This document shows, one piece after another, positions 26,380 through 43,017 of a DNA stretch of 43,017 nucleotides (position 1 is the first letter of the stretch; every line of letters begins with the position of its first letter). The translations under genes were made by a program, and so were the position numbers. The notes below the pieces were generated by a model that was not told the origin of the DNA, made no database searches, and was given only the letters and a program-made list of their open reading frames with translations. The DNA is from a virus, in IMG/VR virus record IMGVR_UViG_3300027396_000051, positions 1-43,017 of that record; one strand, 5' to 3'.

Positions 26380-26411
26380 ATAAGGTTAGCCCTCCTTTTT
26401 AGGTGTTAGGC

Positions 26412-26434: not shown

Positions 26435-26498
26435 CGGCCGAACACAAAGATATTTAACATCTGCGACAAAAAGATATATGTAATGATTAAATTTTCGC

Positions 26499-26506: not shown

Positions 26507-26520
26507 CAAAGGGAGATATT

Positions 26521-28407: not shown

Positions 28408-28410
28408 CTT

Positions 28411-29138: not shown

Positions 29139-29162
29139 AGTTAGTATTTAAAGGAGCGATGA

Positions 29163-29726
29163 ATGGCATTAATTGATTCAGTGTTAAATTTAGTTAACAA
29201 GCAACCCAAAGATCCGGACGCACCAAAGCCTCCAGTGGGATCACGCAGCGAGCGTGAAGCAAAACTAAAAGACAAAGCAGGTATGGTTATTTCTGTATTT
29301 GCATTATTATTAGCGGTTAACGCATGGTATAGTGGCAAATTATCTAGCACGGTATTAAACAATACACTAGGTGCTAACAATACATGGGCACAATATCAAG
29401 CCAAAGCAGGTCGTGGAGTTAGCTACGAGATTGCCGCTAAGACAACCGCTGATCCAAAACTTAAAGCAGCGTTCATGGCTGAAAAAGAACGCATGGATGA
29501 AGACAAGAAAGAACTTGCTGTTAAAGCAAAGGCCATGGAACACGAGCGTGAAATTGCTAAAAAGTCTAGCCCATGGATTGGTTATGCTTCAACAGCGTAT
29601 CAATTAGCTATTGTTGTATTATCTGCAAGTATTCTTGCAGTTAGCATGGCAATGTTCTGGGGCAGCTTTGTAGTAGCGGGCGCCGGAGTATTATTGAGCC
29701 TAAATGGTTTATTCCTTTGGTTCTAA
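29163..29726 (+). CDS. DUF4337-like membrane protein in the lysis region
   Basis: 187 residues. One membrane segment near residues 40-57 (GMVISVFALLLAVNAWYSGK), then a 'NNTWAQYQAKAGR' segment and a Lys/Glu-rich coil, then two C-terminal membrane segments (about 140-187). The order TM / N-x-W-A-x-[FY]-QAK / coil / TM-TM is that of the DUF4337 family found in bacteria, of unknown function. An AAGGAGCG site lies 9 bases upstream. Between spanins and holin candidate it could be an antiholin, lysis timer or envelope modifier (inference only). Confidence 0.6.
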   Translation: MALIDSVLNLVNKQPKDPDAPKPPVGSRSEREAKLKDKAGMVISVFALLLAVNAWYSGKLSSTVLNNTLGANNTWAQYQAKAGRGVSYEIAAKTTADPKLKAAFMAEKERMDEDKKELAVKAKAMEHEREIAKKSSPWIGYASTAYQLAIVVLSASILAVSMAMFWGSFVVAGAGVLLSLNGLFLWF

Positions 29727-29745
29727 AATAAATTAGGAGCGGACA

Positions 29746-30267
29746 ATGACTGAAGAAGTAAAGAGCGAAAGTGAAAAGAAAAAAGAAGATTGGATGAATG
29801 CTAAATGGCGTCCAATGATGGGTTGGATGTATATGGTTGTCTGCATGATGGACATGGTTGTATTTCCAATCTTATGGAGTTTGTTACAAACTCTAACACA
29901 TAGTCCTATTACACAATGGAATCCATTAACCTTACAAGGTGCTGGTTTATTCCATATCGCAATGGGTGCAGTATTAGGTATCGCGGCATTTGGTCGCACA
30001 CAAGAAAAACTAAATGGAGCAAACAATGGTGGCGCACAACCAATGGCAACAAGTAACCCTTCAACATTTGGCCCTGCTACGGCAGCACCAAGCAGTTTCC
30101 CAGCAGCGACTACGCCAGGTTTCGGAGCACCAAGCTCCCCAAGTAGCTTTAGCGGAAGCAGCTTTGGAGGCGTATCTAAGCCAGCAACATTTGGGGCACC
30201 AGCTGCACCGATGATGAGCAGTACAGGTAAACCAATGCCGGTTCAACCTGATCAACCAGAAATTTAA
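29746..30267 (+). CDS. Holin candidate with Phe-Gly-rich tail
   Basis: 173 residues. The N-terminal part 'KKEDWMNAKWRPMMGWMYMV' followed by two hydrophobic segments (about 25-47 and 62-86) resembles small holins of the GTA_holin_3TM type. The C-terminal ~80 residues are low-complexity Ala/Pro/Ser/Phe/Gly sequence with repeated F-G dipeptides (STFGPA, PGFGAP, SSFGGV, ATFGAP). The position after endolysin and spanin genes supports holin function. A pore-forming structural role other than lysis is not excluded. AGGAGCGGAC precedes the ATG. Confidence 0.55.
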   Translation: MTEEVKSESEKKKEDWMNAKWRPMMGWMYMVVCMMDMVVFPILWSLLQTLTHSPITQWNPLTLQGAGLFHIAMGAVLGIAAFGRTQEKLNGANNGGAQPMATSNPSTFGPATAAPSSFPAATTPGFGAPSSPSSFSGSSFGGVSKPATFGAPAAPMMSSTGKPMPVQPDQPEI

Positions 30268-30276
30268 GGAGATAGT

Positions 30277-30483
30277 ATGAAACACATTATTTTTGTAGCA
30301 GGTCTTGCATTAGCAGTTTCTTCCCCTGCATTTGCAGCCGATGCTCCTGCAAAAGCAGAAAAGGTTTGTATTAAAACTACTGATGCCAAAACAGGTAAAG
30401 AAGTTGAAAAATGCAAAACTATGAAAAAACACGAAAAGAAAGAAGGAACTAAGGTTGAAGGAACAAAGCCAGATAAAAAATAA
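30277..30483 (+). CDS. Small secreted Lys-rich protein
   Basis: 68 residues with a clear Sec signal (MKHIIFVAGLALAVSSPAFA, cleavage after Ala20), mature ~48 residues, strongly basic, with two Cys (VCIKTTDAKTGKEVEKC) that could form a disulphide in the periplasm. AAGGAGATAG ribosome site. Last gene of the late lysis operon, just before the terminator. Function unknown; it may bind the anionic cell wall or outer membrane at lysis (inference). Confidence 0.6.
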   Translation: MKHIIFVAGLALAVSSPAFAADAPAKAEKVCIKTTDAKTGKEVEKCKTMKKHEKKEGTKVEGTKPDKK

Positions 30484-30511
30484 TTTGAGCTCAGTAAATC
30501 TTAATTAAATA

Positions 30512-30540
30512 AAAGGACTACTTGACGTGGTCCTTTTTTT
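30512..30540 (+). terminator. Rho-independent terminator closing the lysis operon
   Basis: AAAGGACTAC, loop TTGAC, GTGGTCCTTT: a 10-bp stem with one G-U pair, followed by a run of T to 30540. The loop and first base of the 3' arm double as the -35 box of the next promoter. Confidence 0.85.
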
Positions 30541-30557
30541 ATTGTATAATAGTATTA
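30522..30557 (+). promoter_or_regulatory. Sigma70-type promoter nested in the terminator, drives dnaJ
   Basis: TTGACG (30522-30527), a 17-base spacer made of the terminator's 3' arm and T-run, then a perfect TATAAT (30545-30550). The expected start of transcription is at about 30557, the A of the dnaJ ATG, so the message would be leaderless. Host-polymerase (early) use is inferred from the consensus boxes. Confidence 0.8.
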
Positions 30558-31402
30558 TGGATTATTACTCAACACTAGGTTTACAAAGAGGTGCATCTGA
30601 CGACGAGATTAAAAAGGCTTATCGCAAACTTGCGATGAAGCATCATCCCGATCGTGGAGGTGACCAAAATAAATTTAAAGAAATATCTACTGCCTACGAA
30701 GCATTAAGCGATCCTGATAAAAAACGGATTATTGATATGGGCGGAGATCCTAATGCACAACCAGGAATGGGCGGCGGATTTTACAACCAAGGCCCATTTG
30801 AATTTCACTTCGGTGGCGGCATGCCGGGCATGGACGATATTTTTTCGCAGTTTGGATTTGGACGTAGGCCAATGCGAAGAAATAGATCTGTTAACATTAA
30901 CGTAGAACTTTCCTTAGAAGAAGTTTTAAAAGGCAAAGATTTAAATGCTGAAATTACTATACCCGGCGGGCAAAGAAAATTAATTAATATTTCAATTCCT
31001 GCAGGCGTAGATCACGGCCAACAAATTCGATATGAAGGTATGGGCGACACAACCCTACGAGATGTCCCGGCAGGAGATTTGATTGTTAATCTTTATATTC
31101 GAAAACATCCAACATTTATTAGAGAAGGCGATTCTTTAATCTTTGAACATAATATTTCTGTCTGGGATGCTATATTAGGAACAACAATAGATGTTCCTAC
31201 TATCTCAGGAAAAAATATTAGTGTCAGTGTTCCAGCAGGAACACAATCAAATACAATACTAAGTTGCAAAGGAGAAGGTTTGCCAAATATGCGTTCAAAA
31301 ATACGTGGGCCGTTATTAATTAAAATTAATGTCAATATTCCACGTAACCTATCAGCTAATCAAATACATAAAGTACAACAACTAAGAGACGGAGTCGAAT
31401 AA
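30557..31402 (+). CDS. dnaJ: DnaJ/CbpA-type Hsp40 co-chaperone
   Basis: 281 residues from ATG 30557; ten more codons upstream are open but would lie over the promoter, and the J-domain itself begins at residue 2 (DYYSTLGL). J-domain with HPD at 30-32, a Gly/Phe-rich linker (about 65-110), and two C-terminal substrate-binding beta domains (VNINVELSLEEVLKG...; GDLIVNLYIRKHPTFIREGD). There is no CxxCxGxG zinc region, so it is the class B (CbpA-like) form. It would stimulate host DnaK. There is no ribosome site before the start, fitting a leaderless message. The TAATG junction couples it to clpA. Confidence 0.9.
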   Translation: MDYYSTLGLQRGASDDEIKKAYRKLAMKHHPDRGGDQNKFKEISTAYEALSDPDKKRIIDMGGDPNAQPGMGGGFYNQGPFEFHFGGGMPGMDDIFSQFGFGRRPMRRNRSVNINVELSLEEVLKGKDLNAEITIPGGQRKLINISIPAGVDHGQQIRYEGMGDTTLRDVPAGDLIVNLYIRKHPTFIREGDSLIFEHNISVWDAILGTTIDVPTISGKNISVSVPAGTQSNTILSCKGEGLPNMRSKIRGPLLIKINVNIPRNLSANQIHKVQQLRDGVE

Positions 31403-33714
31403 TGATTGAACCAAGTCAAAGTCTACAACAAATTTTTGAAAATTCGATGAATATGGCAAAAAGCCTTGATCACGAATATATTACCATTGAACATTTGCTT
31501 CTTGGTATAATGGATGATGCTGATTCATTTAAGATGATCACCGACTTCGGTGCTGATGCTAATTTTATTAAAACAAATCTAGATCATTATATTAAAAATA
31601 ATCTTAGCGATATTAAAAATCCAGAATGCGAAAAACCAAGAAAAACTCATGCTGTAGAACGTGTGCTCAATAGATGTTTTACTCAAGTTTTGTTTAGTGG
31701 GCGTCAACGTATTGAAGTTGCAGATGTTATTGTTAGCATCTTAAATGAAAAAAATAGTTTTGCATTTTATTTTTTAAACAAAGGCGGCTTAACAAAAGAA
31801 AAATTTATTAATTATTTCCAAGAAATGGTTAATAATGAAGAAGAATCAAGCCAAGAAACCGCAGTTACAAACCCTAGTCAGATGGAACGAATTATTAATA
31901 CTTTTTGTACTAACCTAAGCCTACAAGCAAAACAACGTAAAATTGATCCTGTTATTGGTAGAGACGACGAGCTTGAAAAGGTACAACTTGTTCTTGCTCG
32001 CAGAAACAAATGTAATGTTTTACTGGTAGGTGAACCCGGAGTCGGTAAGACTGCTATTGTAGAAGGTCTTGCTCGCAAGATCTTTGAAAAGAAAGTACCT
32101 AAGTTTATTCAAGACCATCAGGTCTATAGTTTAGATATTTCAGCATTGCTAGCTGGTAGTAAGTATCGTGGAGATTTTGAAGAACGTGTAAAAGCTGTGT
32201 TAGGTGCTTTAGAAAAGAAAGGCAAGATTATTTTATTCATTGACGAAGCACACATGATGCAAGGTGCCGGTGCTGCTAATCAAAGTTCAAATGATATGGC
32301 CAATATGTTGAAGCCAATCCTTACTAAAGGTGTTATTAAACTTGTAGCATCAACTACGTGGGAAGATTATCGTAAACATTTTGAAAAAGATCGTGCTCTA
32401 ATGCGTCGATTCCAACGTGTTACGGTTGACGAGCCAACGCCAGAACTTGCAGTTAAAATTATTAAAGGTATTAAGAAATACTACGAAAAACATCACAACG
32501 TTAAAATTACTGACGGTGCAATTGAGCAATCAGTTAAACTTTCTATGAAGTATATGTCTGATAAAAAATTACCAGACAAAGCAATTGACATTATCGATTG
32601 TGCTTGTGCTCGTTATAAAGTAAAAGACGAAGACGGCATGGAAGGCATTGAACAACTGGTAGATATTGAACAGGTTACATACGAACTTAGTAAAATGGTT
32701 AATATGCCGCTAGAAATGGTAGCACAAAAAGAAAGTAAGAACTTATCTGACCTAGAAGGTTCCATGAAGGCATCTGTTTATGGACAAGATACAGCAGTTG
32801 ATAATCTTCTTGATAAGATTTTTGTTTCTCAAGCAGGTATGAAAAATCCTAATAAACCCATTGGCAGTTTTCTATTTTTAGGTCCAACTGGTACAGGTAA
32901 AACAGAAACTGCAAGAGCGTTAGCAGATAAAATGGGTATGCAATTAATTCGTTTTGATATGAGTGAATATCAAGAAAAACATAGCGTTGCTCGATTAATT
33001 GGTGCACCTCCTGGTTATGTTGGATACGAAGATAACGCAGGTCAGTTGATTACCAAACTACAAGAACACCCAAATGCTGTATTGCTTTTAGATGAAATTG
33101 AAAAAGCACATCCCGATGTGTCAAACATCTTGTTACAATTTATGGATAACGGATTTGTAACTGGAAGTAATGGAAAACAAGCAGACGGTCGCAACACTAT
33201 TTTAATTATGACCAGTAATTTAGGGGCAGCAGACAACGAAAAAAATACCATAGGTTTTGGTGACTTAAGCAAGGACGACGAGGACGACAAGGCAGTTAAG
33301 AAATTCTTTGCTCCGGAGTTCCGTAATCGTTTAGATGCTATTATTAAGTTTTCAAATCTTTCAATGGTTACCGTTGGTCAAATTGTTAAAAAGTTTGTTA
33401 AAGAACTTAACGATCAACTTAAAGATAAAGGCATTGAGATTGTTGTTGATTCCGAATCAGTTAAATGGTTAGCTGAAAGAGGTTACGATAAAAAGATGGG
33501 CGCAAGACCGTTGGCTCGTTTAATTGATAATAAACTCAAATCTCCTTTGAGCCGTAAAGTCCTATTTGGAGAATTACAAAACGGCGGACGAGTTGATGTT
33601 AGCATTGAGAATGACGATCTAAAATTTGAAATTAGTCCTATTTTAACCAAAGAACAGAAAAAGGCATTGAAGCGAGGGTTAAACTTGGAGGAATCCAATG
33701 AAGAAACCGTATGA
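31402..33714 (+). CDS. clpA: ClpA-type AAA+ unfoldase
   Basis: 770 residues (E. coli ClpA 758). N-terminal Clp repeat domain (SLDHEYITIEHLLLGIMDDA), then D1 with Walker A GEPGVGKT (210-217) and 'FIDEAH', D2 with Walker A GPTGTGKT (494-501) and 'LLLDEIEKAHP', then sensor 'GARPLARLI' and ClpA-type C-terminus. There is no long coiled-coil M domain between D1 and D2, which excludes ClpB. An Ile-Gly-Phe loop (617-619, in KNTIGFGD) sits where ClpA/ClpX carry their ClpP-docking IGL/IGF tripeptide. So it probably feeds proteins to a host (or other) ClpP; no clpP is present in the window. Translationally coupled to dnaJ. Confidence 0.88.
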   Translation: MIEPSQSLQQIFENSMNMAKSLDHEYITIEHLLLGIMDDADSFKMITDFGADANFIKTNLDHYIKNNLSDIKNPECEKPRKTHAVERVLNRCFTQVLFSGRQRIEVADVIVSILNEKNSFAFYFLNKGGLTKEKFINYFQEMVNNEEESSQETAVTNPSQMERIINTFCTNLSLQAKQRKIDPVIGRDDELEKVQLVLARRNKCNVLLVGEPGVGKTAIVEGLARKIFEKKVPKFIQDHQVYSLDISALLAGSKYRGDFEERVKAVLGALEKKGKIILFIDEAHMMQGAGAANQSSNDMANMLKPILTKGVIKLVASTTWEDYRKHFEKDRALMRRFQRVTVDEPTPELAVKIIKGIKKYYEKHHNVKITDGAIEQSVKLSMKYMSDKKLPDKAIDIIDCACARYKVKDEDGMEGIEQLVDIEQVTYELSKMVNMPLEMVAQKESKNLSDLEGSMKASVYGQDTAVDNLLDKIFVSQAGMKNPNKPIGSFLFLGPTGTGKTETARALADKMGMQLIRFDMSEYQEKHSVARLIGAPPGYVGYEDNAGQLITKLQEHPNAVLLLDEIEKAHPDVSNILLQFMDNGFVTGSNGKQADGRNTILIMTSNLGAADNEKNTIGFGDLSKDDEDDKAVKKFFAPEFRNRLDAIIKFSNLSMVTVGQIVKKFVKELNDQLKDKGIEIVVDSESVKWLAERGYDKKMGARPLARLIDNKLKSPLSRKVLFGELQNGGRVDVSIENDDLKFEISPILTKEQKKALKRGLNLEESNEETV

Positions 33715-34384
33715 TGTAAAGTATACAGGTCAAAAGTTTTACAATAAGTGGTTATACAAAGTTACCGTCTTGATCAAGGGGGTATCTTTGTTACGCACAA
33801 AAACATATGATGAGATTAGAGAATTCTGTTTAAACCCAGAAGAACAAGATCGACATTATTATTTTGACAGCAGAAAACAAGCATTTAGTAACAAAGATCA
33901 AATCTTAGAACTAGTTACATTTTTAGAAAAAAATAAAAATGTTGAATTTACTAAAAGAATTGAAAGTAGATATATCGACATATACACTAACGATGCTACA
34001 TTTTGTAAAAATCTTGCTTTAGAATTTAAAGATTATGTAAGACATGTATTTGAACCATTTCCTGGGCAAGAACAAGAACAAACAAATTCAAATTCGATTT
34101 TTGCTAAAAAATTACCTCATAATAGATATAACTACAAAGTATATCTTCTTCCCCATAAGTTAAAAGGAAATAAAGAAGCAAAAGAAAGTTTTGTTTCTTG
34201 GATTGAAACTCAAGGGGAAAAGATACGAATGTCAACCGCAGTTAAAAGTTGGTTTATAAAGACCGATTATAATTGGGACCGTCGATACGTACTTGTAGAG
34301 GACGAAAAAACTCTATTCATGATGCAATTGCGAAATGGTGAAGTTGTGGGTAGGGTTTACGACTATCAAATTTTAGCTAAATAA
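33698..34384 (+). CDS. Unknown protein translated from the clpA message
   Basis: 228 residues, starting inside the end of clpA (17-base overlap) with GGAGG just upstream (33688), so translationally coupled. Rich in aromatic and Lys residues. Starts MKKPYDVKYTGQKFYNKWLY; a repeated strand pattern 'NKWLYKVTVLIKG' and 'NRYNYKVYLLPHK' suggests two related alpha/beta halves. No recognised motif. Coupling to an unfoldase makes an adaptor or substrate-selection role worth testing, but nothing in the sequence shows it. Confidence 0.6.
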   Translation: MKKPYDVKYTGQKFYNKWLYKVTVLIKGVSLLRTKTYDEIREFCLNPEEQDRHYYFDSRKQAFSNKDQILELVTFLEKNKNVEFTKRIESRYIDIYTNDATFCKNLALEFKDYVRHVFEPFPGQEQEQTNSNSIFAKKLPHNRYNYKVYLLPHKLKGNKEAKESFVSWIETQGEKIRMSTAVKSWFIKTDYNWDRRYVLVEDEKTLFMMQLRNGEVVGRVYDYQILAK

Positions 34385-34387
34385 GAG

Positions 34388-34756
34388 ATGTCCACTGAAA
34401 TCATTGTTTTACTAGAAAATTATTCAACTGAATCGGCAACTCCAGATTTTACATATACTGAAAAGGGTATCGGTGCTGGGTATCATAGCCTAAATAATTC
34501 GCTGCATACAGCAGTTTATAGAGTTGATTCGTTTGTTGGAACTATTAAATTGCAAGGGTCTTTAGCATTAGATCCTAGCGAATCAGATTGGTTTGACATT
34601 GATGGAACTACATTAGGCGACGATAGTACGCTAATTACAAATCCAGATAACCCTGTAGTGTCTCAAAGCGTTAATTTTACTGGTAATTTCGTCTGGATTC
34701 GTGCCGGTCACGTATTAGAAGACGGTACTATCCAGTCAATTCACTATAACTTCTAA
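34388..34756 (+). CDS. Small beta-rich protein, possible virion component
   Basis: 122 residues, starting three bases after the preceding stop. All-beta sequence beginning MSTEIIVLLENYSTESATPD and including 'FVGTIKLQGSLALDPSESDW' and 'TGNFVWIRAGHVLEDGTIQS'. The pattern resembles small beta-sandwich decoration or fibre proteins I recall from T4-like marine phages, but no family can be named. It lies at the end of the dnaJ-clpA transcript, directly before a late promoter, so it may be expressed both early and late. Confidence 0.55.
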   Translation: MSTEIIVLLENYSTESATPDFTYTEKGIGAGYHSLNNSLHTAVYRVDSFVGTIKLQGSLALDPSESDWFDIDGTTLGDDSTLITNPDNPVVSQSVNFTGNFVWIRAGHVLEDGTIQSIHYNF

Positions 34757-34768
34757 CATTTAAAATAA

Positions 34769-34776
34769 GATAAATA
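34769..34776 (+). promoter_or_regulatory. T4-type late promoter GATAAATA
   Basis: Intergenic octamer. With T4 geometry transcription would start near 34782, one base past the first available ATG (34781), which therefore cannot be used; the ATG at 34802 remains. Opens the capsid-cargo cluster. Confidence 0.8.
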
Positions 34777-34801
34777 TAGTATGTCCTTACGGAACCATAC
34801 T

Positions 34802-35203
34802 ATGAAAGATATTATCACTAAACTTGAAGTTTCTTTATTTGAAACAGAATTAAATTCAGCAGACCCTAAGGGTGATTACGAAGCTAAAAAGAAGGCCCTA
34901 CACGATCTTGAAACTGATCCTGTTGTTATGAAAGAGCCTGATCTTGCAAAAGCAGTACAGCAACGTAAATTAGACTTAGAAAAAGAAGCTAGATCTAAAG
35001 GGATAAGAGAATCCACAGATCACGAAGCAAGCATGGCTAAAGCAGAATTAGTTCAAATTGCAAAAAACGCCAAGATTCTTTTTAATAGTATCCGAGAAGG
35101 TGATGAATTACCAGGATGGGTTAGTAGTTATATTACCCTTGCCAATGATCATTTAAATTCTGCCGCAGAGCATGTAGAATATAATCCACCGGAGCAGAAA
35201 TAA
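34802..35203 (+). CDS. Small conserved late protein (cargo cluster)
   Basis: 133 residues from ATG 34802 (MKDIITKLEVSLFETELNSA). An ATG seven codons earlier in frame lies at the inferred transcription start, so I reject it. Helical, highly charged, with 'GIRESTDHEASMAKAELVQI', where I-R-E/S matches the T4 prohead-protease pattern. The second half (ASMAKAELVQIAKNAKILFN, followed by GDELPGWV) is a phrase I recall in several marine phage virion-associated proteins. TAATG junction to the next gene. Function unknown. Confidence 0.65.
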   Translation: MKDIITKLEVSLFETELNSADPKGDYEAKKKALHDLETDPVVMKEPDLAKAVQQRKLDLEKEARSKGIRESTDHEASMAKAELVQIAKNAKILFNSIREGDELPGWVSSYITLANDHLNSAAEHVEYNPPEQK

Positions 35204-35550
35204 TGTTATTAAAAGAAATGTGGTCGGCTATAGGAGCTCCAAAAGATGACGAGCAAGCTGACATTGATTGGATTGACGATTTAAAATTTTATATTGATAA
35301 TAATACAGAATTATTAACAAAATATTTCTTTCCTGCGGTAAAGCGCCACGAAAAACATGCAGGACATCCAAAGGCTTTCACAATTTACATTAAACCTTTA
35401 AGAAGTTGTTTAGAAAATTATTGTGAAATGTTTGATATTGAAGATGCCAATGAAAAGTTTCCTGAAAGCAAAATTGTTGAACTAGCAAAAATGATTGCTA
35501 CTGAACAAGAAAAGCATATCGAGAACGGCGACTATAAACAGGAAGACTAA
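35203..35550 (+). CDS. Small helical late protein (cargo cluster)
   Basis: 115 residues. TAATG overlaps at both ends. Helical and acidic, starting MLLKEMWSAIGAPKDDEQAD and containing 'YFFPAVKRHEKHAGHPKAFT'. No recognised family. Position directly before the large cargo fusion and under the same late promoter suggests that it acts in the virion or assists packaging of its neighbour. Confidence 0.6.
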   Translation: MLLKEMWSAIGAPKDDEQADIDWIDDLKFYIDNNTELLTKYFFPAVKRHEKHAGHPKAFTIYIKPLRSCLENYCEMFDIEDANEKFPESKIVELAKMIATEQEKHIENGDYKQED

Positions 35551-38500
35551 TGAAACTTTTAGAATTATTCTACAAGAGAAATAATTTACCTCTTATAGAA
35601 GGTGGAAACCTTTCGACTCAAAGCCCTGGCTGGCAAGGAGATACCGGTGACCATCAAGCTCAGCAAATTGATCTTAAAGTTCACAAGCGTTCTTATATTG
35701 TTCCAATATTAGACAAATTATTAAACGGAATTAATTCTAGTTTTACTGCATCAGTTGGTCACGAACTTTGGAATAAAAAAGTTTTAGCAAGTAAAAAATT
35801 CTTAAGCGGATCTAGTTTACATTTTTTTAATACTGACTTACCCGACGACGAGTTTGAACGTATTAAACCTAAAGTTGGCGATATAGATACACAAATTAAT
35901 AAAGAATATGCAGGAGAACTTGTTCAATTTTTACAATCCTCAACAGGTAAAGTTGTTGGCAATGGAAAATTAATTGGATTTAGTAAAGGCAACGAACAAT
36001 ATAGTACAATGTGGGAGTTAACTGATCCTCCTATTAAGGTACAGATTGATCTTGAATTTGTAGATTATGAAAAAGACGAACCCACTGATTGGGCAGGATT
36101 TAGTCATAGCAGTAGCTGGGAAGATTTAAGCCAAGGTATCAAAGGTGTATTTCACAAGTATCTAATTCAATCATTTACACGATTAACAAGCCAAGATTTT
36201 TTATTAAGAAAAATGGTTGGCCGAGGTAAAGCTAGAGTTGAACAAGATGTTCCAACAACAGACAATATGTTTTCTTTTGCTGTTAGTAGCAAAGAAGGCG
36301 GAGGCCTTCGTCCTAAATATGAACCAGTATTAGACGATGCCGGACAGCCTTTAGAAATTGACGGTCTTCCTGTTATGAGGGCGTTGCCAGCAAGTGGTTA
36401 CGAAAAGAATATTGGAAAAATTTTCCAAAACATATTTGGTAAAAGAGTTAAAGAAACAGAAATACAAAAACTTCTTCCTAAGACATGGAGTTTTACAGGA
36501 TTATTAGAAATTATGAATCTTGTTGTTCCTCAGGATGAAAAGGAAAAAGTCATTGATGCATTTATTGATAAGCTATATGCTCCTGGCGCACAAGGATTAT
36601 ATAAAGGCGATCCTGAAAGAGATATCTTAGAAAAAAATACAGCACTTAACTATGCATTAAAAACTTTAAACGTTACACCTCATAAAAATCTTGAACAAAT
36701 GCGTCAAGATTATAAAGCAAGTTACAAAGTATCCGAAAGTATTAACGAAGCCGAAGTAGTACAAAGTAAAAGAAAAGGAATTGTTCATTTAGAAAAAATG
36801 AAGGATTCTGATTTTTTAAATTTATTAGACGAATTAAAAAATTCAGCAACAGGAAAATTTGAATTACACAATGTTCCAATGACCGTTAAAGTAGACGGGT
36901 TTGGTGCTAGGTTTGGTAAAGATAAATCTGGCAAACCATATATGGAAACTAGTCGTAGTGGTCCTAAGTTTGAACCTGGTACATTCAGCAAACATGCTGA
37001 AGAAAGACAAGCCGCTCCAGATGTAAAAGCTAGGGCTAAGTTATTTGATGATCTATACGACGAGATGATGCATGTCATTGCTAACGTTGATCAAAAATTA
37101 GGTAATACCGCTCTCAATGATGTAAAAATTCATTGTGAAGTTTTATATCTACCATTTGCTACTGAAACAGAAGATGGTAAATTAAAATTTGTTGGCATAC
37201 ATTATGACAAGTTGCCCGAAGGTGTTACTCTAGCACTTGTGCCATTGTTTGCTGAAAAAAGCTCAACTGGCGAACAACATCCAAATAGCGACAAATACAT
37301 CTCTGCATTGAGAAAAATTGGTCGCATTGGAACAACAATGTTCATTGACAACTCGTTAACTACTAACGGCAGTTTAGATGTAACTGGGGCATTGCCTCCC
37401 ATTGAAAATCTTGAAACATTACGATCGTTAGTTAATAGCGGTAAAAGAGATCTTAAAAAAGAAGCTACCGAAGCATTGCAGCCTGTCAAAGAATATCTAG
37501 CAAAATTTATCATCCAACATCCAGATATTATAGGAAAGGATAAGTTAGGCAAAGATTATGAAGGCATTATTCTTAACACAAAGAATGGTCCTGTTAAAAT
37601 TACTAGTCAAGAACAAAAAGATATTATTTCTGCAAAAAACGCAGCAATTAAATCTGCAAGACCTCCTGGAGCAACAGGCGATGGAAGATCGGGCAAAACT
37701 GCTGTCGTTACCGCAGGAAGTTTTGTTGGGCACATTGGACATCAACAACTTGTAGATTTTGTTTTAAACAAAGCGTCTCAGTTAAATGCTGATCCTTATG
37801 TTTATATTAGTAGTGCCGTGGGACCAGACGATCCTATTCCAGCTTCTGTTAAATTACAAACATGGCAAAAATTATATCCAGAAAAGAAGGCCATGTTCCA
37901 GCTGATCCAAGAAGGTGGATTAGTTATGAAAAAAATTGAAAAAGAATTAGTAACATCAAGTAATCCTCCTCCATACGATCATATCATTGTTATGGTTGGC
38001 GAAGATCGATATGAAGGATTTAAAAAATGGATGGAGCATTTATCTAAAAGGATGAAGAATCCTAAATATCCAGGATTTGAACATGTTAAATTTGATGTAG
38101 AAGTTACACCAAGAGCTGCCGAAACTGGCGGAACTGGAATGAGTTTTACTAAATTACGTAACATTTTAAAAGATCCTAATGCTACTCCAGAACAGCAATT
38201 TGCATTATGGTCTCAAGGTTTTGATGTTCAAAAATTAGGGAAAGATTGGATTATGAAATTAATGGATTTCACACGCAAGGGCATGGGTATTCAAGAAAGC
38301 ATATCTGAAGCACCGATTGAAATGGATCCTTCCGAACCAATGAATCCTATGATTCATAGCCATGACAAAGCCAACCCAGCGAAGTTAAAATATAGAATGA
38401 TGAGAGCAGCTGGACAAATTAAAGATCTTGCTAGCAGAGTAGACAATGCTAGTCCATACGAATGGCAAAACATGGCCAAACAATTTGACGAACTTAAAAT

Positions 38501-38951
38501 GAATGTAGAACAAATTCGTCATGCCTTAGAAGAACTTGCTAAAGTAAGAAGAAAAGGTGGAATCCGAAGTCGCGGTATTGATCCAATGATTGATAGCGTT
38601 GAAGAAGGTTGGAAAAGTAAAACGGCAGGCGCAGCTTTAGCTGCTGCTAATTTATTAGCAAGTCCGGCACAGGCGGCAGAAGAACCAGTCAAACCTATTA
38701 CTATTGCCTATGTAATGATCGATGGCGAAATGAGGAAATATAATTTAGGTGATAAATTTTCTTCTGCGAAAGAAGCCGAAGAATTTATTAGTAAGGTTTT
38801 AGATAAACAAGGATTACAGGGTTATCAACTAGAAATAAAACACGGTTATCCTAAAAAGAAAGAAGTAAAAGAAGGATATGGACGCTATTGGTGTTCCACT
38901 GATAAAAAATGGAAAACTCGTAAGGGTCCTAAACAAAAGAGATCATCATGA
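35550..38951 (+). CDS. Multi-domain protein: ligase-like adenylyltransferase plus HIGH nucleotidylyltransferase
   Basis: 1133 residues. N-terminal region 18-400 of unknown fold. Domain 2 (~408-690) has the ATP-ligase nucleotidyltransferase motifs: I K447-V-D-G450, an SRSG turn, a likely motif III with E530 (IHCEVLY), IV E671-G-I-I-L, V K683. Domain 3 (~718-900) has H728-I-G-H731 in 'AGSFVGHIGHQQLV' and 'MSFTKLR' (864-870), as in NadR/NMN-adenylyltransferase-type enzymes. Then a helical segment (KANPAKLKYRMMRAAGQIKD) and a C-terminal domain after 'VEEGWK' with a hydrophobic AGAALAAANLLASPAQA stretch. The N-terminus MKLLELFYKR resembles that of T4 Alt (MELITELF). Candidate prohead-protease sites follow E17, E400, E916, E920 and E1019, mostly between domains. 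Possibly a packaged polyprotein carrying nucleic-acid-repair or NAD-related enzymes. Substrates unknown. Confidence 0.75.
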   Translation: MKLLELFYKRNNLPLIEGGNLSTQSPGWQGDTGDHQAQQIDLKVHKRSYIVPILDKLLNGINSSFTASVGHELWNKKVLASKKFLSGSSLHFFNTDLPDDEFERIKPKVGDIDTQINKEYAGELVQFLQSSTGKVVGNGKLIGFSKGNEQYSTMWELTDPPIKVQIDLEFVDYEKDEPTDWAGFSHSSSWEDLSQGIKGVFHKYLIQSFTRLTSQDFLLRKMVGRGKARVEQDVPTTDNMFSFAVSSKEGGGLRPKYEPVLDDAGQPLEIDGLPVMRALPASGYEKNIGKIFQNIFGKRVKETEIQKLLPKTWSFTGLLEIMNLVVPQDEKEKVIDAFIDKLYAPGAQGLYKGDPERDILEKNTALNYALKTLNVTPHKNLEQMRQDYKASYKVSESINEAEVVQSKRKGIVHLEKMKDSDFLNLLDELKNSATGKFELHNVPMTVKVDGFGARFGKDKSGKPYMETSRSGPKFEPGTFSKHAEERQAAPDVKARAKLFDDLYDEMMHVIANVDQKLGNTALNDVKIHCEVLYLPFATETEDGKLKFVGIHYDKLPEGVTLALVPLFAEKSSTGEQHPNSDKYISALRKIGRIGTTMFIDNSLTTNGSLDVTGALPPIENLETLRSLVNSGKRDLKKEATEALQPVKEYLAKFIIQHPDIIGKDKLGKDYEGIILNTKNGPVKITSQEQKDIISAKNAAIKSARPPGATGDGRSGKTAVVTAGSFVGHIGHQQLVDFVLNKASQLNADPYVYISSAVGPDDPIPASVKLQTWQKLYPEKKAMFQLIQEGGLVMKKIEKELVTSSNPPPYDHIIVMVGEDRYEGFKKWMEHLSKRMKNPKYPGFEHVKFDVEVTPRAAETGGTGMSFTKLRNILKDPNATPEQQFALWSQGFDVQKLGKDWIMKLMDFTRKGMGIQESISEAPIEMDPSEPMNPMIHSHDKANPAKLKYRMMRAAGQIKDLASRVDNASPYEWQNMAKQFDELKMNVEQIRHALEELAKVRRKGGIRSRGIDPMIDSVEEGWKSKTAGAALAAANLLASPAQAAEEPVKPITIAYVMIDGEMRKYNLGDKFSSAKEAEEFISKVLDKQGLQGYQLEIKHGYPKKKEVKEGYGRYWCSTDKKWKTRKGPKQKRSS

Positions 38952-39574
38952 AAATATCTGATATATTAGAACATAAGAAAAGCCGAAGAGCAAAAGTGTA
39001 TAATGTCAAACCTAGAAACCCTGTAGCTCATGCTGCACAAAGTGTTATCTCAGGTGCCGGTGCTCATAAAGATATGAAGAAGGCACAAAAACAAGGATAT
39101 GAAAAACATAAAAAACCAGCAGAAGTAACAGAAGGTTTATTAGATAGATCTAAAAGACAACAAATTATTCAATTCTTAGCTAAAAAGATGGACTGGGAAA
39201 TAAACTATCTTGAACTTGCTAGTGATGCTGAATTAATTTCATGGTATAAAAAAGTACAGGCAGGAAAGGATCCTATGAAAGAATCAGGTTTTGGACGTGA
39301 TGCTTATCAAAGAGATTACGATAGTAGCGTAAGCGGATTTGGACGTAGAAATAGAGAAGATGATTGGGACGAGGGCAACACCGAACCACCAAATAACTTT
39401 GCTATCTATATCAACGGTAAAAAATGGAAAGTGTTTCCTGGTCAAGGAACATACGCAGACGATCACAGAGAAATGGCTCAGCTTCGTAGATTGCAAGACA
39501 TGTGCCGTAAGAAAACTGAACAGACTGGCAAGAAATGGGAAGTTTCTCGTACAGGCGAACCAGCCACAGCATAA
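38948..39574 (+). CDS. Cargo-cluster protein with MKISDILE N-terminus
   Basis: 208 residues, ATGA overlap with the gene before. N-terminus MKISDILE nearly repeats that of the gene at 41543 (MKIRDILE). A basic region (KSRRAKVYNVKPRNPVAHAA) is followed by V-T-E/G, a helical domain (SKRQQIIQFLAKKMDWEINY), an Arg/Asp-rich linker, and a C-terminal module 'NNFAIYINGKKWKVFPGQGT ... DHREMAQLRRLQDMC' that I recall as a recurring module in marine T4-like phage proteins. No enzyme motif. Likely head-internal or virion protein (inference). Confidence 0.65.
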   Translation: MKISDILEHKKSRRAKVYNVKPRNPVAHAAQSVISGAGAHKDMKKAQKQGYEKHKKPAEVTEGLLDRSKRQQIIQFLAKKMDWEINYLELASDAELISWYKKVQAGKDPMKESGFGRDAYQRDYDSSVSGFGRRNREDDWDEGNTEPPNNFAIYINGKKWKVFPGQGTYADDHREMAQLRRLQDMCRKKTEQTGKKWEVSRTGEPATA

Positions 39575-39777
39575 TGGATTTATCTGAACTAAAACGTCTT
39601 GCAGGTATTACCGAATTTAAAGGTTATCAACCTTACGACGGCAGCAACATAAGTATTACTGGAAACGAAAAAGGCGAACTTATGAAACAACATAATATTA
39701 AACCAGGTACTCCGGAATGGTTTCAATTATGGTTCAGTCTTCCTTATCTAACCGGAGAAAAACCTGTAGGAAAATAA
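39574..39777 (+). CDS. Small cargo-cluster protein [12 protein letters not shown]
   Basis: 67 residues from ATG 39574 in a TAATG overlap; the frame is open 13 codons further upstream, but that ATG lies deep inside the preceding gene. Sequence [20 protein letters not shown], then '[20 protein letters not shown]' and '[20 protein letters not shown]'. A conserved small protein of T4-like marine phages as far as I recall, function unknown. Possibly another short-signal-bearing head protein. Confidence 0.65.
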
Positions 39778-39778
39778 A

Positions 39779-40102
39779 ATGATTACAATATCACCATCAG
39801 CAAAAATAAAAATTCAAGATTTGCTTTCTGAAGAGGGAAACCCTAATTTAAAACTTCGTACCTTTGTACAAGGTGGCGGATGTAGTGGATTTAGTTACGG
39901 CTTTACCTTTGACGACGAACAAAACGAAGATGACTTTGAATTTGATTGCGGTGCATGGAAAGTATTAGTTGACGCAATGAGTATGCAATATCTACACGGT
40001 GCAGAGATAGATTATAAAGAAGAATTAATGGGATCAAGTTTTACTATCAAAAATCCTAATGCAGTAACAACCTGCGGTTGTGGAAGTAGTTTTGCAGTAT
40101 GA
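39779..40102 (+). CDS. A-type iron-sulfur carrier (IscA/ErpA/HesB-like)
   Basis: 107 residues, the usual family length. The three ligand Cys are all present: C35 in '[12 protein letters not shown]' and C99/C101 in 'TTCGCGSSF'. Such proteins carry Fe-S clusters to apo-enzymes; HesB/IscA-like genes are known in marine T4-like phages. Here it sits among virion-type genes behind a late promoter, so late supply of clusters (for example to phage or host oxidoreductases) or packaging is possible. No CTS-like N-terminus. ATGA overlap with the next mini-gene. Confidence 0.9.
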
Positions 40103-40173
40103 ACGAGTATCCTGTTTATCCACCACAAGAAGGCGAATGGGATCGTCCTCTAAATCCATATAGTCCAGTATGA
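40099..40173 (+). CDS. 24-residue mini-protein between two ATGA junctions
   Basis: Encodes [20 protein letters not shown] plus YSPV. Its ATG overlaps the stop of the Fe-S carrier gene and its TGA overlaps the ATG of the HAD-GH19 gene, the same four-base junction at both ends, which strongly suggests it is translated. Pro/Tyr-rich, no membrane segment. It may be a real peptide or serve mainly as a translational bridge to the gene downstream. Confidence 0.6.
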
Positions 40174-41339
40174 GAGCAGAAGAGTTTAGTTTACCCAAAG
40201 GAATGAAAGTCTATGTTGATATGGACGGAGTCCTTGCTGATCTTTTTAATCATGTAGGAGGTTTACATGATGTAGAGCACTACAATAAAATGACAAAAGA
40301 TCAATGGGAAACATTTTTTAAAGACTCTAATGCCTATGAATTATTTCGTGACCTTCCGGCATTTTCTACTGCTAATAAACTTTTAAGCATAGTAGTTGAT
40401 TATGCAGGTGGTTATAATATTTTAAGCAGCCCATTAAACTTTGATAAAGAAGGAAGCATTAGAGGTAAACGTGAATGGCTGAAAAAACATATTCATGTTC
40501 CTGCTGACAAAATTATATTCGAACACGAAAAATACAAATATGCAAAAAATGCTGACGGTACTCCTAATATTCTTATTGACGATTACGGTGTAAACATTCG
40601 TGCTTGGCAACAAGCGGGCGGTATTGCTATTAAGTATCAAGCAGACGAAGATAGTTTATCTAAAGTCTTTTCTGCATTAAAAACTGCTGCTAAGGGAGAA
40701 GTTGACGAGGGATGGAAGGACTGGGCAGCAGCCGGGGCACTAGGAACTGCAATGGCATTCGGTGCTCCTAGTGATGCTAATGCTAAACATTCTAAACCGG
40801 ATGTTATTCAACAGGTATCTAAAAAAGATATTGCAAAAAGCGTAACCGGTAATCCCCACGAAGTCTACTTAAAAAAGGCTGCTGAAAAAGCAGGTATAGT
40901 AGGTCACGAGCTTACAGCGTTTTTAGCACAATGCGCTCACGAAACTTTAGATTTTAAACACATGAAAGAAATAGGCGGATCATTAGACTTTCGAAAATAT
41001 GATCCTAAATATGCTCCTAAAAAAGCAAAAGCATTGGGTAATAAAAATGTTGGAGACGGAGCAAAATATAAAGGTCGCGGATACATACAGCTGACAGGTC
41101 GAGACAATTATAAGAAAGCAGGCCAAGCATTAGGATTGCCGTTAGAGCAAAAACCCGAACTTGTAGAAAAACCAGAAATTGCTGCTAAAGTAGCAGTTTG
41201 GTATTGGAAAAATAGAGTAGCACCAAAAATTGATAGTTTTAAAGATACTAAAGCGGTTACTAAAACTATCAATCCCGGGCTTAAACATTTAGACTCTAGA
41301 AAAGAAAAGCATCAGGCTTTCCAGGTAGCAATGAGATGA
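40170..41339 (+). CDS. HAD 5'(3')-nucleotidase-like domain fused to a GH19 lysozyme domain
   Basis: 389 residues. Domain 1 (~10-175) has the HAD nucleophile motif D17-M-D19-G-V (VYVDMDGVLADLF) and the phrases 'LPAFSTANKLLSI', 'ILSSPLNF' and 'NILIDDYGVNI' of the 5'(3')-deoxyribonucleotidase group. A linker V178-D-E180/G181-W-K, followed by an Ala-rich hydrophobic stretch (AAAGALGTAMAFGAPSDANA), leads to a GH19 domain (~225-389) with 'AQCAHETLDF' (Glu258) and 'YKGRGYIQLTGRDNY'. The linker matches that in the 35550 product and carries a prohead-protease-like V-x-E/G site. The N-terminus MRAEEF matches the next gene's MRAKEF. Perhaps a packaged protein cut into a nucleotidase and an entry lysin (inference). 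Confidence 0.8.
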   Translation: MRAEEFSLPKGMKVYVDMDGVLADLFNHVGGLHDVEHYNKMTKDQWETFFKDSNAYELFRDLPAFSTANKLLSIVVDYAGGYNILSSPLNFDKEGSIRGKREWLKKHIHVPADKIIFEHEKYKYAKNADGTPNILIDDYGVNIRAWQQAGGIAIKYQADEDSLSKVFSALKTAAKGEVDEGWKDWAAAGALGTAMAFGAPSDANAKHSKPDVIQQVSKKDIAKSVTGNPHEVYLKKAAEKAGIVGHELTAFLAQCAHETLDFKHMKEIGGSLDFRKYDPKYAPKKAKALGNKNVGDGAKYKGRGYIQLTGRDNYKKAGQALGLPLEQKPELVEKPEIAAKVAVWYWKNRVAPKIDSFKDTKAVTKTINPGLKHLDSRKEKHQAFQVAMR

Positions 41340-41536
41340 GAGCTAAAGAGTTTGTTATAGAAAACTTTGCTGACGGAAAAGTTAAAGGAAAAAGCCGCCC
41401 CGGAAGAGTAAAACGTTCAGGGGCTAGTTGTTCTGGTTCAGTTACTGATCTACGCAAACGTGCAAAAAATGCATCGGGTGAGAAATCTAAAATGTATCAC
41501 TGGTGTGCAAATATGAAAAGCGGAAAGAATAAATAA
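41336..41536 (+). CDS. Small basic cargo-cluster protein with Cys pair
   Basis: 66 residues, ATGA overlap. N-terminus MRAKEFVIENF aligns with T4 internal-protein signals (MKTYQEFIAE) and with MRAEEF of the gene before. The remainder is very basic (KVKGKSRPGRVKRSGASCSG, then 'RKRAKNASGEKSKMYHWCAN'). I recall this Arg/Lys-rich module with the YHWC ending as common in marine T4-like phages, often at the C-terminus of larger proteins. Likely DNA-binding inside the head (inference). Confidence 0.65.
   Translation: MRAKEFVIENFADGKVKGKSRPGRVKRSGASCSGSVTDLRKRAKNASGEKSKMYHWCANMKSGKNK
41528..41535 (+). promoter_or_regulatory. Weak late-promoter candidate AATAAATA
   Basis: One-base variant of GATAAATA at the end of the preceding gene. 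Transcription would begin at about 41541, leaving practically no leader before ATG 41543, which also lacks a ribosome site. Plausible only if the gene is leaderless; may be chance in an AT-rich gap. Confidence 0.3.
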
Positions 41537-41542
41537 TATATT

Positions 41543-41800
41543 ATGAAAATACGTGATATTTTAGAATCAGCTACAGCAGGAGCAACATCATCGGCTAATA
41601 TCGGCACGGTTGTTAGCCCTCATATTGCTATAGGAAAAGATCGTGGAAATAAAAGCTACACAGGTAGCCCAGGCAAATCTGGTACAAAAGCACCAGCAGT
41701 TCCTAAAGTAAAACAAGCAAAAAATAAGGACGGTACAGCTAAAAATGCCCTAGATATGAAAACTAATATCTTCGGTGGCGGCTCTGCCATAAAAAGATAA
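41543..41800 (+). CDS. Low-complexity cargo-cluster protein with MKIRDILE/S N-terminus
   Basis: 85 residues. I6-L7-E8/S9 fits the prohead-protease pattern exactly, as with T4 internal proteins cut after a short N-terminal signal. The rest is Gly/Ser/Lys/Ala-rich and probably disordered (SATAGATSSANIGTVVSPHI, then 'KSYTGSPGKSGTKAPAVPKV'). I recall similar SATAGATSS proteins in T4-like marine phages. No ribosome site, so probably translated by coupling to the gene before, 6 bases upstream. Confidence 0.65.
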   Translation: MKIRDILESATAGATSSANIGTVVSPHIAIGKDRGNKSYTGSPGKSGTKAPAVPKVKQAKNKDGTAKNALDMKTNIFGGGSAIKR

Positions 41801-41803
41801 ATA
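41796..41803 (+). promoter_or_regulatory. T4-type late promoter GATAAATA
   Basis: Octamer overlapping the stop region of the preceding gene, 38 bases before ATG 41842. Expected start near 41809; the leader contains AAGGAC as a weak ribosome site. Confidence 0.75.
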
Positions 41804-41841
41804 TATTATAGGATCTTTATACAGGATACAAGGACTCAAAC

Positions 41842-42639
41842 ATGGACTTCAAATCATTACTTACTAAAATTCATAGCTTAAACGATCAAGTTGATCTACC
41901 AAAAGCTCCAGAATTACCAAAAGCTGTTCAGCTTAACGAAGATGCACAATTACGTGTGCTAGCAGGTACTTCATCATATATTGCAGAAGCTAAGAAAAAA
42001 GCTGATGAAAAGATGGATGAAGTTTTTGATGCCGATGCTAAAGTAGGCGACAAGAAAAAAACAGCTAGTGGCGGTACAGCAGAAAAAACTAAAACTGGTT
42101 TGAAACATACAGCGGGTGATCGCTATAGTGGAAAACAAGCTGAAAAAGAAGATAAGAAAAAGAAAGACGAGTCTATTGATCCTGAGTTCAAGTCTAAATT
42201 TAGTAAGATGGTTGAAGCTGCAAAGGGTAAGCCAGATTTTGCAGACATCGACGGTGACGGTGACAAAAAAGAACCAATGAAGAAAGCTGCTAAAGATAAA
42301 AAGAAAGGCGGCGACAAGAAAGATGGCAAGAAAGGTATGAGTGCTAAACAAGCAAAATACTTTGGTAAGAAAAACGAATCTGTAAAAACTTCTAAGAAAG
42401 TAGTTGCAGAATCAGTTGAAACAAAACTATCTTTCAAAGACATGGTAAAACTAGTACAAGAAAGCGGCGGTCAACAACAAATTGATCCAAAAGACAAAGA
42501 ATTATTTGCCTGGGCTGAGCGTGTTGCTAAATCTAAACTAGGTGAAGGAATGAAAGCAGATCTATATGCCGGGCTAGTATATGAAAGAATGGGCGGTGTA
42601 TTTGAAATGTATGATGTGTTATCCGAAGCACAAAAGTAA
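41842..42639 (+). CDS. Lys-rich probable internal head or scaffold-like protein
   Basis: 265 residues, extremely charged, with a long Lys/Asp/Glu-rich middle (about 50-180) including an EF-hand-like 'DFADIDGDGDKKEPMKKAAK' segment. That phrase is one I recall from many marine T4-like phages. Prohead-protease-like sites: I47-A-E49/A50, VVAE/S, LVQE/S and a near C-terminal LSE/A (260-263). The C-terminal ~65 residues form a compact helical part (FAWAERVAKSKLGEGMKADL, YAGLVYERMGGVFEM). No enzyme motif. Own late promoter and a terminator right behind it indicate strong, separate late expression, as expected for an abundant head component (inference). Confidence 0.65.
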   Translation: MDFKSLLTKIHSLNDQVDLPKAPELPKAVQLNEDAQLRVLAGTSSYIAEAKKKADEKMDEVFDADAKVGDKKKTASGGTAEKTKTGLKHTAGDRYSGKQAEKEDKKKKDESIDPEFKSKFSKMVEAAKGKPDFADIDGDGDKKEPMKKAAKDKKKGGDKKDGKKGMSAKQAKYFGKKNESVKTSKKVVAESVETKLSFKDMVKLVQESGGQQQIDPKDKELFAWAERVAKSKLGEGMKADLYAGLVYERMGGVFEMYDVLSEAQK

Positions 42640-42657
42640 TTTTACCAAAAGGTAAAC

Positions 42658-42688
42658 AAAAGCCAGTCCTGAGTTGACTGGCTTTTTT
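42658..42688 (+). terminator. Rho-independent terminator after the Lys-rich head gene
   Basis: An 11-bp perfect stem AAAAGCCAGTC/GACTGGCTTTT with 7-base loop and a T-run to 42688. A small extra hairpin (TTTACC-aaaa-GGTAAA, 42641-42656) precedes it. The 3' arm contains the -35 box of the next promoter. Confidence 0.9.
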
Positions 42689-42709
42689 GTTGGCTATATA
42701 ATATACTTT
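42674..42709 (+). promoter_or_regulatory. Sigma70-type promoter nested in the terminator, drives dsbA
   Basis: TTGACT (42674-42679), a 17-base spacer containing the terminator's T-run, TATAAT (42697-42702). Expected start about 42709, then a leader with AGGAGA (42717-42722) before ATG 42728. Same design and same 17-base spacing as at 30522. Confidence 0.85.
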
Positions 42710-42727
42710 TATACACAGGAGAATACT

Positions 42728-42988
42728 ATGGCAAAAATGTATGGTGCAGAAGAAAAAGCCAAACTTGAGAGACTTATCAATGAAGGCGGAAATGTACTTC
42801 GTGAAATTGAAGATCTCCAAGAAGGCCTAAAAGAAACCGTTAAAGCCGTAGCAGAAGAGCTGCAAATCAAACCAAGCTGGATCAATAAAGCAATCAAGAT
42901 TGCACATAAAGATAATTGGAAAGATCACGAAACTGAATGGGACGAAGTTGAAATGATCCTTGGCGTTACTAAACGTTTACCAGAATGA
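42728..42988 (+). CDS. dsbA: DsbA-like dsDNA-binding late-transcription protein
   Basis: 86 residues (T4 DsbA 89) from ATG 42728 with AGGAGA six bases upstream; the frame is open further upstream, but those codons overlap the promoter. The sequence pattern 'LERLINEGGNVLREIEDLQE' followed by 'LKETVKAVAEELQIKPSWIN' and 'HETEWDEVEMILGV' fits the phage dsDNA-binding protein that binds near late promoters and aids late transcription in T4. Placing it under an early-type promoter suits a protein needed before late transcription. Stop overlaps the next start (ATGA). Confidence 0.8.
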   Translation: MAKMYGAEEKAKLERLINEGGNVLREIEDLQEGLKETVKAVAEELQIKPSWINKAIKIAHKDNWKDHETEWDEVEMILGVTKRLPE

Positions 42989-43017
42989 TAGAATACTTTA
43001 ATTCAACCATAGAGACC
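42985..43017 (+). CDS. Start of a further gene, cut by the window end
   Basis: ATG in an ATGA overlap with dsbA; eleven codons are visible (MIEYFNSTIET). The junction type is the same as for other real genes in the window. Too short to identify. Confidence 0.5.
   Translation, partial: MIEYFNSTIET

Follow-up and report, generated by a model that had tools for sequence, protein, structure and literature searches.

The stretch of viral DNA analysed here (the window; IMG/VR record IMGVR_UViG_3300027396_000051, 43,017 nucleotides) carries on its plus strand an open reading frame (ORF, 35550-38951) of 1133 residues, which probably encodes a head-cargo polyprotein of a T4-type phage that is matured by the phage's own gp21-type protease. 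An earlier note, made from the sequence without database searches, had singled out this ORF as a candidate injected polyprotein with ATP-ligase-like and HIGH-nucleotidylyltransferase domains. Its length and coordinates were confirmed, and KVDG (447-450), E530, EGIIL (671-675), VKIT (682-685), HIGH (728-731) and MSFTKLR (864-870) all lie where the note had placed them. The ORF is identical in four further viral contigs (L001-L004), and an assembly artefact was therefore rejected as its origin. Window positions 24861-43014 are 100% identical to the end of contig G002 (219,444 bases), and the first 24.9 kb of the window reach past the limit of G002.

In viral_contigs, an initial scan yielded 12 loci, and a profile scan yielded 199 relatives, of which 80 loci were kept; the counts below rest on those and on the first-scan loci. 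Eighty ORFs spanning the core were reduced to 61 by removal of near-duplicates, with the window's own ORF counted, and one of them (L057), truncated at a contig edge, could not be scored at E17, leaving 60 scorable sequences there. Searches of the ORF against Pfam, NCBIfam and PDB sequences gave no match above cut-off or of significance; a PDB profile search returned nothing significant for residues 1-420 and only the HIGH motif of RibF for residues 385-960. The scan of genome_contigs found no relative of the ORF, no record in the phage collection spanned 80% of the chain (partial matches occurred in 38 records), and the homologue is not named in main-text passages on Campylobacter phages IBB_35 and CP21.

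Predicted enzyme domains

The first folded part of the chain spans residues 18-400 (35601..36749, +), folds to about residue 390 and matches phrog_19290 (E 2e-22). Nucleotidyltransferases of the Pol-beta superfamily are recognized by an hG[GS] motif, a DxD motif and a third acidic residue, and G87 S88, D111 D113 and D167 satisfy this signature in all 61 sequences, in which G110, Q165 and E169 are likewise invariant. A structural model of residues 1-420 has a mean predicted local distance difference test score (pLDDT) of 90.4, and its eight best Foldseek rows are DNA polymerases beta and mu. The earlier note had named the ligase and HIGH parts and had overlooked a further enzyme-like domain: residues 18-395 are predicted, on a weak fold match, to be a Pol-beta-like nucleotidyltransferase.

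Residues 404-700 (36759..37649, +) form a ligase-like domain, as indicated by invariant residues, by RNA ligases among the Foldseek matches and by stand-alone homologues. ATP-dependent ligases share a KxDG motif, a glutamate in motif III, EG in motif IV and a first lysine in motif V, where a second lysine is usual. KxDG, E530, EG and the first motif V lysine are all present in 61/61 sequences, and K447, D449, G450, E530, E671, G672, K683 and T685 are invariant. Assignment to the ligase superfamily holds for these key residues. By fold, RNA ligases outrank DNA ligases: a model of residues 385-960 (mean pLDDT 86.6; below 50 at 393-401, 928-941 and 953-960) retrieved in Foldseek the archaeal RNA ligase 5d1o (6.8e-4), the tRNA ligase domain 9qw7 (1.0e-3) and the Naegleria RNA ligase 6vt0 (1.5e-3), with DNA ligases lower (3rr5, 1.1e-2).

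The HIGH adenylyltransferase-like domain follows at residues 712-915 (37683..38294, +; phrog_3041, E 3e-15), with H728, G730, H731 and R870 invariant in 61/61. Its HxGH motif and a fold matching CoaD and nicotinamide mononucleotide (NMN) adenylyltransferases place it in the HIGH adenylyltransferase superfamily. The earlier note had suggested an NMN-adenylyltransferase-like activity; NMN adenylyltransferases do match by fold (Z up to 12.5), slightly below CoaD, which comes first (Z 14.0, root-mean-square deviation (rmsd) 2.7, 151 aligned), so that NMN is no more than a possible substrate. Pfam FAD_syn stayed under its cut-off in 5/5 sequences. Both K447 and HxGH, on whose conservation the earlier note had made its reading depend, are invariant among the 61.

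A possible role for these enzymes, which we put forward tentatively, is end repair combined with cofactor renewal. The nucleotidyltransferase would rebuild broken nucleic-acid ends for the ligase to seal, with RNA such as cleaved tRNA as the favoured substrate. Renewal of a dinucleotide cofactor such as nicotinamide adenine dinucleotide (NAD) would fall to the adenylyltransferase, a guess taken from its superfamily. The polymerase rows of the first domain, headed in the VIA list by polymerase mu (Z 8.3), would also suit a packaged protein for DNA repair, with a family X polymerase to fill gaps and the ligase to close nicks in the incoming DNA. We find this rather unlikely, given that TUTases and poly(A) polymerases are among the matches of the first domain too, that the RNA ligases 5d1o and 6vt0 outrank the DNA ligase 3rr5, and that phage tRNA repair, as described in PMC9503650, pairs nucleotidyltransferases with RNA ligases. 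The fold ranking and this described pairing are our whole reason for preferring RNA ends to DNA.

Candidate cut sites and predicted products

The earlier note had listed five [LIV]xE[AGS] sites, at E17, E400, E916, E920 and E1019. All five are present, and the ORF contains nine in total, E396, E557, E788 and E1108 having gone unlisted. Shuffled sequences hold 3.4 on average, with nine reached in 0.8% of 2000 shuffles; for [LI]xE[AGS] the ORF has six against a shuffled mean of 2.4, and 3.5% of shuffles are as high. Because nine is only moderately above chance by shuffling, the motif count alone is weak evidence, and we rejected the count in a single protein as proof. We also rejected treating the five listed sites as equals, since E17 and E400 are strong and E916 and E920 are weak as positions. 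By alignment column, the motif stands at E17 in 60/60 scorable sequences and at E400 in 53/61, compared with 15 sequences at E1108, 8 at E396, 7 at E557 and 4 at E788.

The leader (residues 1-17; 35550..35600, +) ends in LIE/GGN, where the slash marks the predicted cut. All 60 scorable sequences have L, I or V at P3 and glycine at P1', and upstream of the site the leader varies among relatives in both length and sequence; six relatives have 124-143 residues ahead of E/GGN, perhaps from upstream start calls, and these were left unused. The model places E17 at the margin of the fold, with pLDDT below 50 at residues 1-11, a mean of 60 in the block 11-20 and values of at least 94 in the core from about residue 21. 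Homologues lacking a leader, in Vibrio phage pv27 and Stenotrophomonas phage YB07, begin at M-GGN, which corresponds to the predicted new N-terminus. The homologue in Xanthomonas phage X1 reads M-GGN from its annotated start, with an upstream start also possible, and that in Campylobacter phage CJLB-14 keeps a leader ending in ILE/GGN.

T4 gp23 is cut at FLTE/A, and gp21 prefers [LI]xE. In G002 and four related contigs (G008, G011, G012 and G013), L[AIV]E/[SA] of the capsid protein falls opposite this gp23 site in the alignment; the leader site of the polyprotein resembles it, and the protease carries V[LV]E/S near its start. The T4 Alt start MELITELF, to which the earlier note had likened the start of the ORF, was verified by translation from NC_000866. 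We regard packaging with removal of the leader as very likely.

The internal candidate INE/A (residues 398-401; 36741..36752, +) lies in a linker that otherwise changes freely. The motif occurs within 15 residues of E400 in 55/61 sequences and in 9% of shuffled linkers; among those 55, mean pairwise identity is 0.12-0.22 except at P3, P1 and P1', and reaches 1.00 at P1 and 0.89 at P1'. The region has pLDDT below 50 in both models (398-420 in the first, 393-401 in the second). E17 and E400 are therefore well supported as predicted cut sites, both at low-confidence edges of predicted domains, and sites buried in folded cores, which the earlier note had held to speak against cutting, were found elsewhere: E557 and E788 fit the motif inside cores (block pLDDT 95 and 87), with Glu in 8/61 and 23/61 sequences respectively.

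The same conservation at E400 could be read as that of a flexible hinge in a packaged protein that loses its leader at E17 only and otherwise remains one multifunctional enzyme. E17 is the best conserved site (60/60), the ligase and HIGH parts are joined across the 61 aligned sequences, and 13 of 14 mapped cuts in phage SPN3US remove N-terminal propeptides, according to PMC10052503. However, a hinge need not preserve [LIV]xE/A while all of its flanks change, and because X1 and YB07 encode the nucleotidyltransferase and the ligase in two different genes, the two are able to work apart. We consider the hinge unlikely, and cutting at E400 likely.

A third boundary lies just past the HIGH domain, where IQE/S and ISE/A stand at residues 914-921 (38289..38312, +; block mean pLDDT 62). 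The strict motif is found in the first 80 residues past that domain in 34/61 sequences, as against 17% of shuffles. Among the 25 columns listed for the 61-sequence alignment, none in the ligase-HIGH interval has the motif in at least three sequences, and for want of a shared motif column we expect these two parts to stay joined, in a predicted product running from 401 to ~916/920. Release of ligase and HIGH as separate products, as the earlier note had it, is thus not supported; of the sites it had set around the domains, E17 and E400 are conserved, the positions E916 and E920 are not, and none splits the ligase from the HIGH part. Its broader claim, of a prohead-protease-type leader, at least one internal site and probable packaging, is supported by conservation, model edges, the capsid site and a virion homologue described below.

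Motif density was compared between cores and tails, in ratios that are purely descriptive because all of the sequences share kinship. Motif frequency per 1000 residues is 0.32 for core 1 (residues 22-385), 0.77 for core 2 (residues 412-905) and 6.5 for the tails, with 7 seen against 50 expected, 23 against 78 and 120 against ~50 (observed/expected 0.15, 0.30 and 2.49). The tail value is the highest of 13 motifs, followed by the [LI]xE[AGS] sub-motif (1.95) and [LIV]xN[AGS] (1.77), and smaller rises there were found for [LIV]xE (1.65) and for the motif in reverse (1.55). Among the controls, observed/expected in core 1, core 2 and tail was 0.17, 0.41 and 0.91 for [FYWM]xE[AGS], 0.27, 0.48 and 0.74 for [LIV]xxE[AGS], and 0.42, 0.54 and 0.78 for [LIV]E[AGS]; [LIV]xD, xK, xQ and xN before [AGS] gave 0.70-2.57, the cores not being strongly depleted. 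In 85 other G002 proteins of at least 250 residues the motif was seen 136 times against 109 expected.

Tail cassettes and genomic neighbourhood

Beyond the third boundary the chain consists of segments that come and go among relatives. The cassette at residues 921-1019 (38310..38606, +) is matched in separate ORFs of related phages (L061, L065, L080, L084, L087, L095 and L108). Residues 1020-1108 (38607..38873, +), between VEE-G and VKE-G, include a signal-peptide-like stretch and are missing from L006 (74% identical, in a 5-sequence alignment), with E/G at the junction on both sides, so that E1019 and E1108 flank the missing cassette; the final 25 residues and the stop (38874..38951, +) are shared with L006. 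A segment in the L009 tail is likewise missing from L011, and tail length among relatives ranges from 11 to 1256 residues.

Some of these segments correspond to genes found on their own. In a search of the 57 of 61 tails that exceed 40 residues, 18 contain a stretch homologous to 70% or more of a stand-alone ORF (up to 320 residues; E 1e-10 or better), and in eight (L059, L061, L062, L066, L067, L091, L096 and L101) the match runs from the stand-alone ORF's own start methionine. The L062 tail, for example, reads MRAQEFTRKPLAE-GDIP, and a separate gene of L059 reads MRATEFIKKQLSE-GDIP (87% identical, E 3e-85); this L059 gene begins on the base that directly follows the end of the L059 polyprotein gene. 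In the window itself, the next ORF (38948..39574, +; start MKISDILE-H) has a stretch that recurs, fused, in the tail of L099 (59% identical, E 1.7e-21). Pfam detected HD domains in 4, amidoligase in 2 and lysozyme in 1 of the 49 tails of at least 100 residues. In-frame fusion of nearby cargo genes, each already equipped with a targeting start, seems to be how the tail grows.

Two of the polyproteins, those of L009 and L011 (2073 and 2135 residues), have extra NTP_transf_2-like, Amidoligase_2 and DUF6934 domains in their tails (L009:8395-11979 and L011:10632-14399), and the amidoligase part is a stand-alone gene in L012.

The genes that follow the polyprotein also tend to carry the motif near their starts. 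With T also allowed after the Glu, it is present near the start in 86/310 cases for genes 1-6 downstream, as against 311/2548 internal windows, and in 45/438 for upstream genes, as against 274/3463. In the window, the small ORF at 41336..41536 (+) has the capsid-targeting-like start MRAKEFVIE-N and relatives in 12/61 loci, and that at 41543..41800 (+) starts MKIRDILE-SATAGATSS and has relatives in 11/61 loci; the SATAGATSS after its site resembles the LAE/SATAGATSA of the capsid protein. A further small ORF with an internal start (39535..39777, +) is possible cargo, judged from sequence only.

The virion homologue is T4-GC190, a putative citidylyltransferase that was detected in purified virions of cyanophage S-SM1, as given in Sullivan et al. 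2010 (PMC3037559). P-SSM2_194, annotated as T4-GC190, matches our HIGH profile (E 1.7e-11) and starts MKSFSQFLTE/T. This detection is the nearest experimental support for packaging, though on a distant relative.

In Methylophilales phage Melnitz-3 (L124), a cultured member of the Kyanoviridae, the ORFs L124:257-1342 and L124:2968-4920 have the capsid-targeting-like starts MQGFKTFLSE/A and MKKFSEIIE/A, and the second contains a HIGH domain.

These observations bear on whether the protein is packaged at all. An ordinary cytoplasmic fusion of enzymes for nucleic-acid repair and for cofactors, produced in the infected cell and left out of the head, would fit the single-protein motif count, the motifs then being incidental, and it would fit the split homologues of YB07 and X1, which have no leader and adjoin replication and baseplate genes. 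It fits poorly with the conserved leader and its T4-like site, the clustering downstream of genes whose starts lie close to the motif, the cargo genes fused into tails or the virion-detected T4-GC190, and we think it improbable.

The gp21-type protease, Peptidase_S77, scored above cut-off in G002, the contig with the identical ORF, and was present in 5 of the 12 large contigs searched. The best 8 of 2481 records for the capsid protein of G002 belong to jumbo phages, Phosso and PA5oct among them.

Other genes of the window lie around this cluster. The ORF at 40170-41339 (+) starts MRAEEF and fuses a 5'-nucleotidase-like (NT5C) domain to a chitinase-like GH19 lytic domain. Between the two domains stands VDE/GWKDWAAAGALGTAMAF, similar to VEE/GWKSKTAGAALAAANLLASPAQA at the polyprotein's cassette, and each of these stretches resembles a signal peptide or membrane helix. 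At 39779-40102 (+) a small ORF with a C-x-C-G ending may be akin to A-type iron-sulfur carriers, which it resembles. Upstream, at 30527-33714 (+), a DnaJ-like protein adjoins a two-domain Clp/AAA ATPase, and ORFs related to this pair, whose families were not named by a search, lie ahead of the polyprotein gene at many of the 61 loci.

Proposed maturation and relation to known systems

In the mechanism that we propose, the leader would direct the chain to the core of the prohead, the route taken by internal proteins of T4. The gp21-type protease would then remove the leader and cut the chain at E400 and at one tail site or more. The products would be a ~43 kDa nucleotidyltransferase (18-400), a 57-58 kDa protein (401 to 916/920) in which ligase and HIGH parts are released joined, and small peptides, and they would enter the next cell together with the DNA. 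On balance we favour the view that the prohead protease here acts as a polyprotein-processing enzyme, cutting modular fused cargo into separate enzymes in the head for delivery as a ready end-repair and cofactor kit.

Several results weigh against this reading. We infer packaging, cutting, injection and the enzyme activities of the ORF product from sequence. The strict motif is absent near E400 in 6/61 sequences, several relatives having Glu at the site followed by Glu, Asp or Asn, and beyond the HIGH domain neither E916 (Glu in 10/61) nor E920 (4/61) is a conserved position. The depletion of the motif in the cores is not specific to it, because other E-containing controls are also low there. 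Peptidase_S77 was not found in 7 of the 12 large contigs, G006 (199,865 bases) included, although these may be fragments. T4-GC190 is distant, and the P-SSM2 ORF gave no match to the nucleotidyltransferase or ligase profiles. As to the enzymes, the second lysine position of motif V is threonine (T685) in 61/61, which makes activity uncertain and is why we call the domain ligase-like and not a proven ligase. The polymerase match of the first domain is weak in Foldseek (E 4.9e-3, probability 0.99, TMq 0.25), and its VIA score (Z 8.3, rmsd 3.8, 172 aligned) is barely over the level that the tool calls common.

If the proposal is right, a prohead protease can split multi-enzyme cargo, which goes beyond the trimming of propeptides. 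Its cut sites would then serve as a sequence signature for injected proteins in uncultivated phage genomes, and phages would collect and exchange payloads by in-frame fusion of targeted genes that can still be released. A literature search, weak on subscription journals, found no report of a prohead protease splitting such a polyprotein.

The separate state of the same enzymes is seen in YB07 and X1, where a run of four genes contains, in the order of the ORF, a homologue of the nucleotidyltransferase part (E 8.6e-16 and 4.3e-52, respectively), one of the ligase part (E 1.7e-19 and 4.8e-28) and a CTP_transf_like gene (by Pfam, E 1.4e-10 and 9.9e-7). They differ from it in being separate, in having one unmatched gene between the first two and in the absence of a leader. 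The CTP_transf_like gene did not match the HIGH profile at E 0.1 in either phage, and its kinship consequently rests on superfamily and gene order.

Among characterized systems, the prohead-protease substrates of SPN3US and phiKZ-like phages are similar in that packaged proteins are cut in trans after x-x-E, and differ in an AxE specificity, as reported in PMC10052503. The polyvalent proteins of Iyer et al. 2017 (PMC5512222), in concept the nearest, carry many domains on one injected phage polypeptide, with release as separate units proposed, and resemble the ORF in joining two or more distinct enzyme domains in one chain. There, as that survey has it, an embedded peptidase does the releasing, whereas the sites in the ORF fit a separate prohead protease. 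No embedded peptidase was found for the ORF in Pfam, PHROGs or NCBIfam, or in Pfam for the 49 tails, in scans that may miss weak matches, and some polyvalent proteins are without one. Pol-beta nucleotidyltransferases appear in the survey's listing for conjugative elements only.

Packaging and injection are modelled here on T4, whose internal proteins and Alt are injected with the DNA (PMC3012670; T4 record). IPII, IPIII and Alt have a short N-terminal targeting sequence with an [LI]xE-type site, and a T4 start such as MKTYQEFIAE/A has its counterparts in MKLLELF...LIE/G of the ORF and MRAKEFxxE/ of neighbouring genes. Each of these T4 proteins stands alone and is cut once, close to its start; the ORF described here has several domains, cassettes and further internal sites. 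It belongs to a known kind, that of T4 internal proteins and polyvalent proteins, and is a variant of it with several enzyme domains and predicted internal cut sites.

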